64,000 nt of DNA from Coleophoma eucalyptorum (taxonomy: Eukaryota; Ascomycota; Leotiomycetes; Helotiales; Dermateaceae), in the NCBI GenBank assembly GCA_026120035.1, contig JALRME010000004.1, positions 248,001 through 312,000 on the forward strand, written 5' to 3'. Numbering within the stretch: position 1 is the first letter of the stretch; each line of letters begins with the position of its first letter. Of this stretch, positions 1,674-11,504 are shown one piece after another. Below the pieces are notes generated by a model. The model was given only the letters and a program-made list of their open reading frames with translations, did not search any database and was not told the origin of the DNA. The translations under genes were made by a program, and so were the position numbers.

Positions 1674-4600
1674 TTAAAAACTGTAACTCCCGTCATTGTT
1701 TTCCGTTAATCTTGCATGCCAGTCTGTTAGCACGCTGAGCTCTTGCTCGGATGTATAAGGCGCATGGTCTTTGGAAACGAAGATGGTATTATTCAGTAAG
1801 GCATCGTGGAAGTGCCGATAGGCGTGTTGTTGCCTGTCTAAATTCCTTTTCTGGTACTCCATATATTTGTCTTCCTCGAGGGTTGCAAAGAAGTACCGAG
1901 GGTGAACACCGATGGCTTGAGCTCCTTTCTGTCCAAACCCAAAAGAGGTTACTGAAAACGCATCCACTCCATCCGTCTGTATTCCATTCATAGGGAAGGT
2001 CACATTAGAAAACTCTCGTAGTGCGTTGTCAATGTTATCTGCATTGAGATTCCCCGGAACAAATCCAGTCTCAAAGATCTGAAGGCAGCCGTTGAGCATC
2101 CAAGCCCCAGCGGCGCCTTTTGAATGACCCGTCAAATACTTCTGGAAAACTCCAAGAACTGGATTTCCAGGGGTGCGACCTAATTGTTGTAGTTGTGTAT
2201 GGATAACTCTCGTCTCGCTTTCATCATTCTTCTTGGTTGAAGTTCCATGGAATGACGCTACTCCGATATCGTCCACGGACAGTCCCCATACAGATAGAGC
2301 ACCTCGTAGCGGCGAGATGCGGGTATCACCTTTCCAAAACTGGCTTCCATAAGTGTTCACGGCTGACGCGAGGTCACGACTTGCTTCTAGTTTTATTTGG
2401 GCTCTACGAGCCTCAACATATTGTGTGAGGCCATCGTCAACGTCCGGGAAGAGCTTAGAAATTCTGGCGACATCTTCATCGAGATATGCCAGCTCAGTTT
2501 CCATGATTTTTGGGATCTGTGATTTTCGAAGATTCAATGCCCTCCTACGATATGTCAGGTCCAGCATTGGAGATGGAAAGAGGCTGGGAGATTCCCGTGC
2601 TACTGTAGCAATTCCCACCCCAGGGGCTGGCATTGAACGTCCGATTTTGTCACTTGCAAGCTCTGCTAGTGCTATTATTCCTCGTATCTGCAGTCCCATC
2701 TCCAGTGCAAGCTTTGCAGTGGTGAGGATCTGGACACCACATCCCTGAGATTCTACAAAGCCGTTTCTTGTAGAAGTAGTCGGACGTGACATTTCCTTGG
2801 GAGTTCTCCCTGATGCATATTCATTTTCGACATTAACTGTTGCTTTCATATTGGCAAATTCGTCTGCGGGGTTAGGATGGAGGTCGTCAACACCTCCTAC
2901 TAGACACATCTTTGCTTTGCCAGCCAAAATTGTCTCGTATCCGCTTTCAAGGGATTCCAAACTTGTTGCACATGCTCCCACTGGGGTTTTGATAGGCCCT
3001 GATGCAGAGAGAAGAAGCATATTTACCCATGCACTTGGTGCGTTAATAAATGCCTCCTGTAGGATATCATTCGACACATGTTGGTCTTGCTGACGCTGGT
3101 GGAAAACCTTTTTGACCGCTCGAAGACCGCCCATACCTGATCCGATACAATTGGCAATCTCAGAGACATGAAGATATTTGTATAGTTCAAAAGAGTCTGT
3201 GATGCCAGCTGAGTACAAGGCTTCGACAGTACAAACAAGCACATATAGTGTAGTAGGGTCAACCTGTGATATGATGTCTTCTGGTATGCCATATCGTGCG
3301 GGGTCCCAGCCAGTCGGCAGTTGACTTGCCACTCTCCTGTCAGTATGAGGCGCCCTGGGAACTCGAATAGTTGCTCCCTTTTTAAACCTGGCTTCATATT
3401 CACGAGGCGATCGCTCAGCTATGTCCACCTTGTCACCGTGAACCGACTGAAAAGCATCGGCCACTTCTTTCGTAACTTCAAATGGTGCCAGATCGACCTG
3501 TATTACAACTTCTTGAAAGATCTGGTGATCGGCTTCCACCTCCCAAGGGCGAATTCCACAATTTTCTAGTATCTGATCCTGATACTTTTTGTAAATTTCA
3601 GTATCGGAAACGGGATGCTTCGTCGCTGAATCGACCCAGCCACAATAAAGCAGGCCATTCAACATCCCGTTGTGATTTTTGATCAGCCCCATAATCCAAG
3701 CCAATTCAACGCAACCCTCAAGTGATAAGGTGCCTTCGCCAGCTTCTACGTCCCATCTAGTACGAGAGCTACCATATGGGCCGACTTCTGAAAACCCGAC
3801 AACAACGACTACCTTTTCCGGGTCCACCATCCCATGCAGGGACTGACATAATGGCGCGATTTTACTCTTATAATCGATAGGCTTTTGACTCCCAATGAGT
3901 ATATTTGCACGAGGCTCTATCACTGGCGTACTAATGCTATGGACTGTCTGGCCCAAAACACATGCCTCATCCTTCAGTGAATCTAGATAAGCAGCGTGGC
4001 GCTCATCGCTAAGATTGTTCATATTTGTCCTGATCTCTTTCATAATTCCCACGAGGTTGTCAACTTCATCCAGTCCGCCGCTGAAATTTGCTAGGATAGG
4101 TTGTTGTTCACTAAACTGTTGCATCTTTGGCGTCAGAAGCGCGCAGAGACAGAAGGCTATTTCATCGCGGGAGAAAGTGCGCATGCCACGGCTCTCAATA
4201 CCATTGGCGAGTAAATCATTGTCGTTCATAAGACCAGTGCCTCGAGTCCACCCAATCACTACTCCACATACGGAGAGAAAGTCTCCCCAGCTTTCAGAGT
4301 GCCATTTATCGAACAGCGATTCCAGAGCAAGTTTCGACTCAGCATAGAGGCCATCGCCTCCAAAGCTGCCATGGTTTGGAGATAGAGGAAGGATGACTTG
4401 TGCTGGTCGAGTTCTTATTCCTCGCAACTGTTTCTGGGCCTTAACTGCTCCCATGAGACGCAACGTATTTGTGAGCATGATTCTATGTGCAACCTCGGAT
4501 TTAGAATCAATCCCGTCTACTTCACGACCATTTTCAGATATTGCAGCGAAAGGAATGATGCAGTCCAGATCCCATCCGAGGCCATTCTTAGAATCATAAA

Positions 4601-6784
4601 TGTAAGAAACCAGGGTCTCGACATCCTTCTGACTTCCTTGGTTAAAGGGAGCCACAAATAATTCTGATCCTCGGGCTCCGTGTGTCCTATAGATGTTCTG
4701 ATACTCCTGGAGCACAGAATGTGAGTATGAGCTTGTTGTAACAAGAACTTTGGCGCCTCCACTGAGCAGACTTTGGAGAATTGCACTTCCTATGGATCCA
4801 ATTCCTGCACCAGTAAGAAGCACTGTTTTCCTCAATTCGAATCCATGCTTTGTTCCGAGATGCAACTGATCCAAAAATTCGCCTGTCACAGATGCGTCAT
4901 AATTTGGTGACCGAGGGCCTTTCGTACCTATATGCACAAAACGAGGCTTTTTTTCTGCGTAGGAACTTGTAATTATAGATTGATTATTTGACACAGGAGA
5001 CTTTGAGGCTGCATACGACTTGGGCAGCCCAACCAAGATGTTGACAAAGTTATGGCCCAGATCTGTTGACTCTCTCGGTACCTCGGTATAGCTGATACCA
5101 CCTTTCGAATCGATAACAGTCAATGGGGCCATGAGTACTGGTGGTCCAACAGTCGGGTTTTTGGTAAGGCTTTTCTCGCAGGCGTGGATAAGCCCATCTA
5201 GGATGTGGTCAAGATTTTCGTTCTGATGCTTGACTGTTTTCTTCTTAAAGTATCTCATTATACGGACGACGTCAGGGTCGGACTTATTCACGAGATCCCT
5301 AAAGCCATTTTGCGCCTCATCTATGGTAATCTGTCCTGCAAATATGCCATAAATTTTGCTTAAAAAACTTTGTTGTGACCAATTCCAGTACGAATCATAT
5401 TGCCTTATCTTAGCAGGGTTGAACACAGCACGTATTCCTGATGAGTATGTCTCGTCATGTTCGGTGGTCCAATCATCAAGTTTTTTCTGGAGCTCGAGGG
5501 ACTGGCTTTTAAACTTGGCCACAATTTTCAGAGAGTCTGATAAGTCAACCCCAAGCTGCTCGGCGTGAAACTGGAGGTTCTGTTTTGACCAAGATGTCTG
5601 TGTTGCTTGAAGGGCCTCGAATTGCTCCGGGCTGAGAGATTCCACATGAGAATTTCCATTCTGATTTGAATTTGTGAGAACTTCTAGAGAAAGATTTTCA
5701 CTTGCTGCATAGCTCTTTGTGACTTCATCGAGAAATGATTTGCTGTTCTCTACGGAACTGAGGCGAGCGGCTGGCTGGGTAAGCACTGCCGCCAGCAAAA
5801 CCCCATCTTGGCGACCAATTCCTAAGCCCCAGTGACTTGAAAGATAGGTCCTGGCAGCAGTATTTCGAAGATCTACTGGGAAGATATTCGTCATCATGCG
5901 GCTGATCAAGGCGCGCGTAACATATCCAAGTTGACCAGTAAAGGTGGGAGCAAAGGTGGCAGCCAACTCTTCCAGAGACATGTTTTCCGGGTCTTCGGGT
6001 ATGGATCCAAATTCCTTGTTCAAATCTCCAATAATTTCATTTTGAAGTGTGGACCTGCCTAACTGCTCTGTTAGTTGAAATCAGCGAATCTGACATTATT
6101 ATCACCCACCACCTGTAATGCTTTTTATGGTTGCTGATGATGGAAATAATGTAACTTCTTTTCTGCGCAGCTTTGCAGATATTAAAGTATGAATTATTGT
6201 GGCTGCGGTGAGTGGCACATCGGGAGCGAGAACTCTAGTCGTAGACAATTCCGGAGGGGCAATATTTTCAATTGATAATGCGGAACTAGTTTGCTTCATT
6301 TGAAAATGAATATCATTCTGAGTCTTCGCCTGAATAACTGAGTTTGGATTTGAGCCACTTGCGATTTCTCCTGTTATCAACTCAGAACCATGTTGAATTT
6401 CACGGTAGTAGATATTGTCAAAGTCGTTCTTCAGTGTGAGCAACTGCCGGGTAATTGCATTTGCCGCATCATATGTGTCGTACTTCATCCCAATTGTCTG
6501 CTTAAACATATTTATCAAAGTTAAACCAGGTCCAATCTCGATAATCCTTTCGACCTTATAGTCTCGTAGAATAACATCTTGAGTTTCGGTCCTTTTCAGT
6601 CGACATTAGCTCGGGCATCTGGAGGTCGAAGTGTTTCAAACAGACCATTTTACTGGAAAGCAGAATTGATGGCTATCTTGTCAATTAGCTTGGGTCTTTG
6701 TTTTTCGTGGAGATTTCAATTTCCATACGCCAGCAGTTCTATCAGCAATATATGAGCCAACTCTTGCTCAACGTCTGGAGACAT
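1674..6784 (-). CDS. fatty acid synthase alpha subunit lacking the PPT domain (secondary-metabolism type)
   Basis: Makes the acyl chain together with a FAS beta subunit. Exons 6784-6729, 6672-6646, 6591-6106 and 6054-1674 give 4950 nt, 1649 residues. The start MSPDVEQELAHILLIELLA is the usual Fas2 N-terminus, followed by FPVKW and TETQDV. The ACP segment ends SITGGG-ST; the phosphopantetheine Ser (about residue 191) follows directly after the codon split by intron 3 (6105-6055). The ketoreductase Rossmann motif TGAGIGSIG is near residue 600. The ketosynthase has the Cys in TPVGACATS (about 1219) and His in FHGTST and TGHSKGA (about 1500). After GQKGAQAIGVHPRYF and NNTIFVSK the protein ends within about 30 residues, where yeast Fas2 continues into about 200 residues of phosphopantetheine transferase. 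The stop is clean, and the length resembles AflA/StcJ-type pathway synthases. No beta subunit is in the window. A dedicated lipid-supply role for the NRPS is inferred from context. Confidence 0.95.
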
Positions 6785-10172: not shown

Positions 10173-11172
10173 ATGAATAGCGACGCATCCATCACGATCC
10201 TCGGATGCGGGAAGTACCTGCACGTCACTAGAAGCACAGGTTTGACTGACTGAAGCAATGGGAAGGACTTCTTGGAACTGCCCTACTTACGGGTCTCGTG
10301 ACTTCGGCCGAGGCAGGATTCCCTCACATCACCAGAGATGTTGTTGAATCTTTGCCCAAACGCTTTATCGCCTGCGTCCAACGGAGGGAGAGCGCGGAAA
10401 AACTGACTCAGGTCTTCTCTGCTCAGTCCATGCCCAAGAAGAATGTCACTATCCTTGTCGCCGATAACTTACGCGGTATTCAGATGGCCTCGACGATCAT
10501 CTTCGCATTTCCTCCCAGTAGCATTCGCAGCGTCCTGAGCAACCCCGACGTTGCAGCTGCGCTAAGAAGTAAGCTTATCATCAGCATGGTGGGTGGAGTG
10601 AGCACGGCACAAATAGAGGACATTCTTCGTGAGAGCTTGGCACGGCCGGCATCTACGGGATTTGGGGAGAGTGAGAGTTGCTACCACATCGTGCAAGCGA
10701 TCGGTAATATTGCAGCGTCGATAGGACGATCGATGACGGTCATCAATGAAGTTTCATCATCTACACCTCCACCATTACTCTTGCATGCCAAACATATTCT
10801 TCGTCAGCTCGGCGATATTGCACATGTTCCCTTGCCACAGAAGCACATCAGCACAGCGCTTTGCGGCTCGGGCATACGGCTTACTTTGCTGTCATGGTGG
10901 AAGCCATGATTGATGGCGCCGTCTCTCTGGGGTTGCCTCGAGAACAGGCACAGATATTGGCAGCACAGACTATGAAAGGTACAGCAGATCTGGTCCTGAG
11001 TGGCCACCATCCGGCCTACATCCGTGACCAGGTGTCGACCCCAGGTGGTTCGACCATGACTGGTCTTTTGGCTTTTGAAGAAGGTTGCGGAAGAGCCACA
11101 ATCAGTAACACGTTACGGGCTTCAGCCTCAGCGGCATACCGTGCGCCTGGTAAGCATGGAAATAGCTTATAA
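10173..11172 (+). pseudogene. pyrroline-5-carboxylate reductase-like gene with a frameshift
   Basis: P5CR family: NAD(P)H reduction of a 1-pyrroline-5-carboxylate to a proline. Exon 1 begins MNSDASITILGCG, the dinucleotide-binding loop. After an intron the protein continues LLGTALLTGLVTSAEAG, RFIACVQRRESAEKL, and on to the C-terminal domain STALCGSG. There the frame breaks near 10871-10874: the expected continuation HTAYFAVMVEAMIDGA, with LPREQAQILAAQTM and STPGGSTMTGLL, is in the next frame up to the stop at 11172. One missing base explains it. The first intron is also awkward: the best donor GTACCT (10214) does not join in frame with any AG acceptor, while the poorer GTCACT at 10224 does. 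So the gene is damaged, or carries sequence errors. Context with the 2OG oxygenase suggests a methylproline role. Confidence 0.75.
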
Positions 11173-11339
11173 GAGACCCCGTGTCTTGTGTTTGAGTGAA
11201 AAAAGCAAGTTTAGTTCGATAGCACTATTTTTTATTTCAAGTAGCAAGAGAAGACAGTAGTAGGCTGTTTTATTATATCAATTTCGCTCTCGGCTCGCAC
11301 TGAATATGATGGCTTTTTGGTACATTTGAACTTCAACAA
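11173..11339. other. short spacer before tRNA-Trp
   Basis: Non-coding, AT-rich spacer between the P5CR-like gene and the tRNA. It probably holds the 3' end of the former. Confidence 0.5.
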
Positions 11340-11480
11340 GGACCGCTGGCGCAACGGTAGCGCGTTCGACTCCAGCTCAGGAGCTCAATCGAAAGGTTAT
11401 CCGGTAAGGACTCCTGCATCTAAATCATTCAAATCATCTTATACTAACATACAACCTCAGTTCAAATCGGGTGTGGTTCA
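11340..11480 (+). tRNA. tRNA-Trp (anticodon CCA) with an anticodon-loop intron and a GT-AG intron in the T arm
   Basis: Folded by hand. Acceptor GGACCGC pairs with GTGGTTC (two G-U), discriminator A at 11480. D stem GCGC/GCGC with loop AACGGTA. Anticodon stem TTCGA/TCGAA with loop CTCCAG...A; anticodon CCA at 11372-11374. A 12-nt intron (11376-11387) sits after position 37, the canonical place. The T stem ATCCG/CGGGT and loop TTCAAAT form only if 11404-11460 is removed. This 57-nt insert begins GTAAGG, contains TACTAAC and ends CCTCAG, that is, it has every mark of a spliceosomal intron and lies exactly between positions 53 and 54. The B box spans the junction, but AGTTCAAATCG at the intron's end nearly rebuilds it. 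A run of seven T follows at 11498. The arms match yeast tRNA-Trp well. Confidence 0.85.
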
Positions 11481-11497
11481 ATCCCTCTCATACCGTC

Positions 11498-11504
11498 TTT
11501 TTTT
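11498..11504 (+). terminator. RNA polymerase III terminator, seven T
   Basis: T7 run 18 nt after the tRNA discriminator base, the usual Pol III stop signal. It supports transcription of the tRNA gene by Pol III. Confidence 0.7.

Follow-up and report, generated by a model that had tools for sequence, protein, structure and literature searches.

The window analysed here, i.e., a stretch of 64,000 nt, corresponds to C46:248001-312000 of a fungal genome of 45.3 Mb in 101 contigs. A tRNA-Trp(CCA) gene was found at 11340-11480 of the window, 167 nt downstream of the stop codon of a gene on the same strand, which was named pyrroline-5-carboxylate reductase-like by eye from its translation. The tRNA gene carries a 12-nt anticodon intron and, additionally, a 57-bp insert between positions 53 and 54, within the T arm. 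The insert boundary slides by one base, with G at both sides, and the GT-AG placement is one of two equal options. The features are listed in Table 1. The positions that a first-pass annotation had given for the insert and the T7 run hold on re-check of the sequence.

Table 1. Features of the interrupted tRNA-Trp gene, its two intact paralogs, and the U6 snRNA intron. Positions are those of the window unless a contig or locus is named.
Feature	Position	Strand	Remarks
CTTCAACAA, start-site-like motif	11331..11339	+	abuts tRNA position 1; common to other tRNA genes of the genome
tRNA-Trp(CCA) positions 1-37	11340..11375	+	same in all 3 genomic copies
Anticodon CCA of tRNA-Trp	11372-11374	+	
Canonical 12-nt anticodon-loop intron, tRNA endonuclease type	11376..11387	+	in 3/3 copies; pairwise 2-3/12 differences
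tRNA positions 38-53: 3' anticodon stem, variable loop, 5' T-stem half	11388..11403	+	same in 3 copies
Insert of 57 nt between 53 and 54; GT-AG ends, spliceosomal marks	11404..11460	+	missing from both paralogs
TACTAAC branch-site sequence	11442..11448	+	CTAAC is the commonest branch (18/42 candidate introns)
B box core GTTCAAATC	11460-11468	+	retained across insert/exon junction
T loop, 3' T stem, acceptor 3' strand, discriminator A73	11461..11480	+	same as paralogs
T7 run, Pol III terminator	11498..11504	+	
Intact tRNA-Trp paralog	match range C11:725939-726044	-	no insert
Intact tRNA-Trp paralog	match range C7:590232-590339	-	no insert
U6 intron	C33:149694-149747 (L020 1479-1532)		54 nt, GTAAGT...TTCTAAC...ACACAG; between GATAC and AGAGAAG

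Scored by the Rfam tRNA model, the insert-bearing gene reaches 23.3 bits, below the cut-off of 29, and each intact paralog reaches 47.1 bits. ARAGORN in a default run reported no tRNA within the window. From the insert-free gene it recognized a tRNA, called Glu(CTC), with the 12-nt intron placed at position 33. The C11 paralog was called Glu(TTC), with the intron placed in the same way, and the C7 paralog (L014) was called Trp(CCA), i(37,12). With the canonical 37/38 placement the anticodon reads CCA in all three copies, as the first-pass annotation had read it when it took the rest of the gene for a tRNA-Trp(CCA) with a 12-nt anticodon intron. Energy folding gave an MFE of -32.4 kcal/mol (z -0.85) with the insert and -28.2 (z -1.50) for the insert-free precursor, the latter with no clean cloverleaf. 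The T arm that had been proposed to form upon removal of the insert was recovered in the Rfam alignment; its assignment rests on that alignment, to which the energy folds add no help.

By pattern and DNA searches, at least three tRNA-Trp loci were found in the genome, i.e., the window copy and the copies on C11 and C7. Both paralogs read TATCCG directly followed by TTCAAATCGGG at the insert site. Because neither has the insert, the insertion site is established by comparison, beyond folding, and it lies exactly at 53/54 as first annotated. The count of intact tRNA-Trp genes, which had been named as a check, thus came to two. In a separate search with the tRNA family, 63 of 1,762 candidates were scored, and none of the three tRNA-Trp genes was among the matches listed. 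The inventory of tRNA genes is therefore incomplete, and there could be a fourth tRNA-Trp gene of diverged sequence.

The mature tRNA sequence is identical in the three copies (72/72 bases). The window copy differs from C11 at 2/12 anticodon-intron bases and 2/17 trailer bases (4/29 together, the trailer compared by eye), versus 0/72 mature bases. The flanks of the three copies have, by eye, little in common beyond the upstream motif and, with C11, the trailer. These proportions suggest that constraint acted on the window copy over most of its existence; constraint after a possibly recent insertion is not implied. The identical mature sequence can equally reflect a very young insertion. A decayed mature sequence, the mark of a tRNA pseudogene, is not seen, and a very young pseudogene is still compatible with this.

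The insert begins with GTAAGG, carries a CTAAC branch site with 13 nt from the branch A to its end, and closes with CTCAG. It has the GT-AG ends, the good 5' splice site, and the branch site at proper distance of U2-type introns, and its presence or absence is exact, with the exons unchanged against the two paralogs. It was compared with the genome's own introns. Candidate introns were predicted from the sequence wherever removal joined two open frames of 60 codons or more, and GT[AG]NG and YAG ends were required. From a first set of 34 stretches (182,392 bases), 198 overlapping candidates were reduced to 38 by taking the best per overlap and by a score filter of our own; nine further stretches gave 20 more, for a total of 58. 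The comparison set comprised the 42 that were no longer than 90 nt and had a CTRAY branch, and the other 16 were excluded. The 42 candidates have a median length of 52.5 nt (range 43-84) and 8-19 nt from the branch A to the end. CTAAC and CAG each occurred in 18, and these frequencies are biased to the consensus because the filter favours CTAAC and GTAAGT. The insert lies well within this range in length, branch, branch distance, and CAG end. Its GTAAGG was found in 0/42 candidates, and G as the sixth base in 1/42.

The combination of signals was also checked for chance occurrence. Among 569,598 positions, i.e., both strands of the window and of the retrieved loci above 2.5 kb with overlaps recounted, there were nine 57-mers of the form GTAAG...CAG. 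In five of the nine, TACTAAC precedes the CAG by 5-16 nt, and each of these is the present insert, counted from overlapping loci. It is very probable, judged from the sequence, that the insert is a spliceosomal-type intron. Comparison with the paralogs and with the features of other introns of this genome gives good support for such an intron within a tRNA gene of Pol III type. This part of the first-pass reading stands; of the two outcomes it offered, spliceosomal processing of the precursor or a silent gene, the second is nearly as likely as the first.

A search for further copies of the insert in its own genome, with E up to 10, very common words skipped, and the best candidates scored, gave none. 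Similar copies across many introns, which would characterize an introner, were thus not seen within that search. Tandem duplication was considered as a source and rejected. The insert has TTCAAATC at 11428-11435, which recurs at the T loop at 11461, and it contains the short repeat AAATCATTC/AAATCATCT; neither repeat accounts for the GT-AG ends, so duplication was dropped as the origin.

The sole U6 snRNA gene found in the genome also has an mRNA-type intron. This intron of 54 nt lies within the ACAGAGA box; the locus reads ACGATAC, then the 54 nt GTAAGTAATACC...TTCTAACATATACACAG, then AGAGAAGATTAGC. Without the 54 nt the sequence becomes ACGATACAGAGAAGATTAGC, the conserved U6 core that matches the Rfam consensus. 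In the Rfam U6 model the exon after the intron fits well and the 5' part is forced onto the intron, so the U6 match begins inside the intron. The search gave one match, with 47 of 3,141 candidates scored, and the core pattern with up to 2 mismatches also matched once in the genome. U6 snRNA genes are Pol III-type by nature, and by eye the flanks are consistent with this: the gene is preceded by a TATA-like stretch and followed by a T run. With no second U6 gene found, the cell should rely on the splicing of the U6 precursor. The spliceosome of this organism is therefore expected to remove an intron from a Pol III-type small RNA, which makes spliceosomal processing of the tRNA-Trp precursor more plausible. 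In fission yeast, removal of the U6-precursor intron by the spliceosome is reported (PMC10484740, excerpt).

Further inserts of this kind were searched for genome-wide. No other tRNA gene with an insert at 53/54 containing CTAAC was found. The pattern CTAAC N{3,33} YAGTTCRANYC gave 13 genomic matches against 37 for a reversed-pattern control. GT-AG stretches were excised at the 13 loci in 167 variants, and a tRNA appeared in a single variant, i.e., this tRNA-Trp gene. With the best candidates scored, no intron-sized insert was found in the 37 listed 5S matches (116-121 nt), the one SRP RNA match (276 nt), or the three U2 matches (193-201 nt). RNase P gave one match with long loops, just under the cut-off in one search and just over it in another, and no clear intron was seen in it by eye. 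No copy of the U6 intron was found elsewhere in the genome. In the open-licence literature, judged by titles and the starts of abstracts, no report of a spliceosomal intron in a nuclear tRNA gene was found. An mRNA-type intron in a Pol III RNA gene is of a known kind, and, as far as these searches tell, a nuclear tRNA as its host is new.

The T-arm insert and the U6 intron share GTAAG, CCTGCA, AAATCATTC, CTAACATA, and CAG in the same order. Among 43 introns, the U6 intron is the top match of the insert, and the reverse is also true, in four of four scoring settings. Pairs of other introns scored as high in 0, 0, 12, and 1 of 861 cases in the four settings. Shuffles that keep GTAAG, CTAAC, and CAG equalled the score in 4.9% and 5.7%, and in a second run in 3.4% and 4.1%. 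The number of common 6- to 9-mers was equalled in 2-9% of shuffles, and the overall p is about 0.02-0.09. GC is 0.35 in both introns against a mean of 0.41 in 28 others. Given these shuffle frequencies and the AT-richness of both introns, a shared origin is suggested and is taken as a lead only.

The Pol III signals of the window copy were compared with those of other tRNA genes. The B box core, the T7 terminator, and TTCAACAA are present. The insert ends in G, i.e., the G of the 3' splice-site AG, and the core GTTCAAATC is retained for this reason, which agrees with the first-pass remark that the 3' end of the insert nearly rebuilds the B box. The spacing from the A box to the B box is enlarged by 57 nt; an increase of this size is tolerable for Pol III genes. 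TTCAACAA matches the window copy at 8/8 bases at -8, immediately before position 1. Upstream of tRNA genes it matches at 8/8 in 11 and at 7/8 in 18, i.e., in 29 of 46 stretches, and among random 80-mers of the window (n=5000) 6.7% reach at least 7 matches and 0.5% reach 8. A TATA-like block (consensus about ATATaaaaAAATAAg) was not detected upstream of the window copy, whose score was -7.1. The 38 tRNA genes scored a mean of 8.4 (sd 7.0; own scores not cross-validated), 2/38 were below the window copy, and 33% of random stretches reached its score. Transcription of the window copy may be weak because this block is missing.

The usual upstream layout of the tRNA genes is ATATaaaaAAATAAg followed by CTTCAACAA, which are probably the Pol III TATA box and start site of this fungus. 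In the two intact tRNA-Trp genes (L013 and L014), about 30 nt separate CTTCAACAA from the tRNA, and the window copy is without such a leader. By eye, the leaders of these two genes could form similar hairpins with one changed pair.

Given the exact insertion, the intron-like anatomy, the intact paralogs, and the similar intron of the U6 gene, the most likely event is the gain of a spliceosomal intron in a dispensable tRNA-Trp copy, dispensable because two intact genes exist. The intron probably entered a pre-tRNA by reverse splicing; reverse transcription of this RNA and recombination would then have brought it into the gene. The interrupted gene retains its A box, B box core, and terminator, so Pol III may still transcribe it. 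The spliceosome would then take out the 57 nt, as is expected for the U6 precursor, and the T arm would be restored. The ends would be processed by RNase P and RNase Z, and the tRNA endonuclease would presumably excise the 12-nt anticodon intron afterwards. This main reading, i.e., a U2-type intron gained in one of three tRNA-Trp genes, spliced by the spliceosome so that the tRNA matures, is given a probability of about 0.5. Taken by itself, splicing of the insert to yield a tRNA has a chance somewhat under even. The fuller proposal is more tentative: one nuclear tRNA would be matured by two unrelated splicing machines, the spliceosome for the T-arm intron of a Pol III precursor and the tRNA endonuclease for the anticodon intron. 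The further step, in which the T-arm intron would also descend from the U6 intron and introns would spread by reverse splicing between Pol III RNAs, is unlikely.

Nearly as likely as the favoured reading is that the window copy is silent or dying, i.e., a genuine spliceosomal intron sits in a redundant tRNA-Trp gene that is not usefully transcribed, or whose transcript is degraded; the copy would be a young pseudogene. The two intact genes and the missing TATA-like element agree with this. Short insertions in the D or T arm are also described as occurring mostly in one of many synonymous eukaryotic tRNA genes, supposed to be pseudogenes (PMC4090602, excerpt). However, the mature bases are unchanged against 4/29 differences in intron and trailer, no damage is seen in the splice signals, the start motif, the B box core, or the terminator, and, to judge from the U6 gene, this organism may be able to splice precursors of this kind.

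It is improbable that the insert is spliced solely from Pol II read-through of the reductase-like gene, as an intron of its 3' UTR with the tRNA incidental. That gene lies a short way upstream on the same strand with its stop codon at 11170-11172, and Pol II transcripts are the usual substrates of the spliceosome, but the insert sits exactly at a tRNA position in an otherwise perfect tRNA, and no sequence link between the insert and the upstream gene was found. The least probable reading is that the insert is another intron of the tRNA endonuclease, ectopically placed like those of archaea, nucleomorphs, and Cyanidioschyzon. Archaeal tRNA genes are known to have ectopic introns at 53/54 (PMC4090602, excerpt), but the insert has GT-AG ends and a branch site, and its predicted fold, no better than shuffles (z -0.85), puts both splice sites in helices flanking a 2x2 AA/AA internal loop and forms no bulge-helix-bulge.

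Among known systems, the U6 snRNA introns of fission yeast and other fungi are alike in that a small RNA gene of Pol III type carries a GT-AG intron with a branch site. They differ in the host, since U6 is a spliceosome component that meets lariats directly, whereas a tRNA does not and has its own, separate splicing system. Spliceosomal introns are also known in the nuclear rRNA genes of lichen fungi. There, too, an RNA gene that Pol II does not transcribe carries mRNA-type introns in ascomycetes, but the host is rRNA and the polymerase is Pol I. The mRNA-type introns of U6 are thought to originate via reverse splicing (PMC10484740, excerpt). The ectopic introns of archaea, cryptophyte nucleomorphs, and Cyanidioschyzon merolae resemble the insert in lying outside the anticodon loop; in archaea they also occur in the T arm and at 53/54, and ectopic introns sometimes share a gene with a canonical intron (PMC4090602, excerpt). 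Those of archaea and Cyanidioschyzon are cut at bulge-helix-bulge-like sites, whereas the present insert has spliceosomal signals and no such motif in its predicted fold; for the short nucleomorph introns, the removal mechanism is given as unknown in the same excerpt (PMC4090602).

If the insert is spliced, a tRNA precursor would be a spliceosome substrate, and Pol III origin and the lack of a cap would be no bar even beyond U6. If it is not spliced, the locus is still a clean case of intron gain in which the site is known, two paralogs are empty, and there is a possible donor. Either outcome bears on the open question of the origin of spliceosomal introns.

Other observations concern the genome and the rest of the window. 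The Pol III subunit RPC2, encoded by an open frame of 965 aa on C20, has its best match, among the 120 listed of 4,555, in Phlyctema vagabunda, with 93% identity. The next named matches we take to be Helotiales and kin, and the fungus is accordingly placed in the Leotiomycetes, as a helotialean. Two open frames of 5784 and 4785 residues, at 29331-61053 on the plus strand of the window, look by eye like one giant non-ribosomal peptide synthetase. A fatty acid synthase alpha-like protein is encoded at 1674-6080 on the minus strand and is 53% identical to its best match among those listed, compared with the 93% of RPC2; possibly it is a specialised copy, close to the peptide synthetase. Contig C56 (128 kb) carries a cluster of tRNA genes on one strand and is probably the mitochondrial genome.
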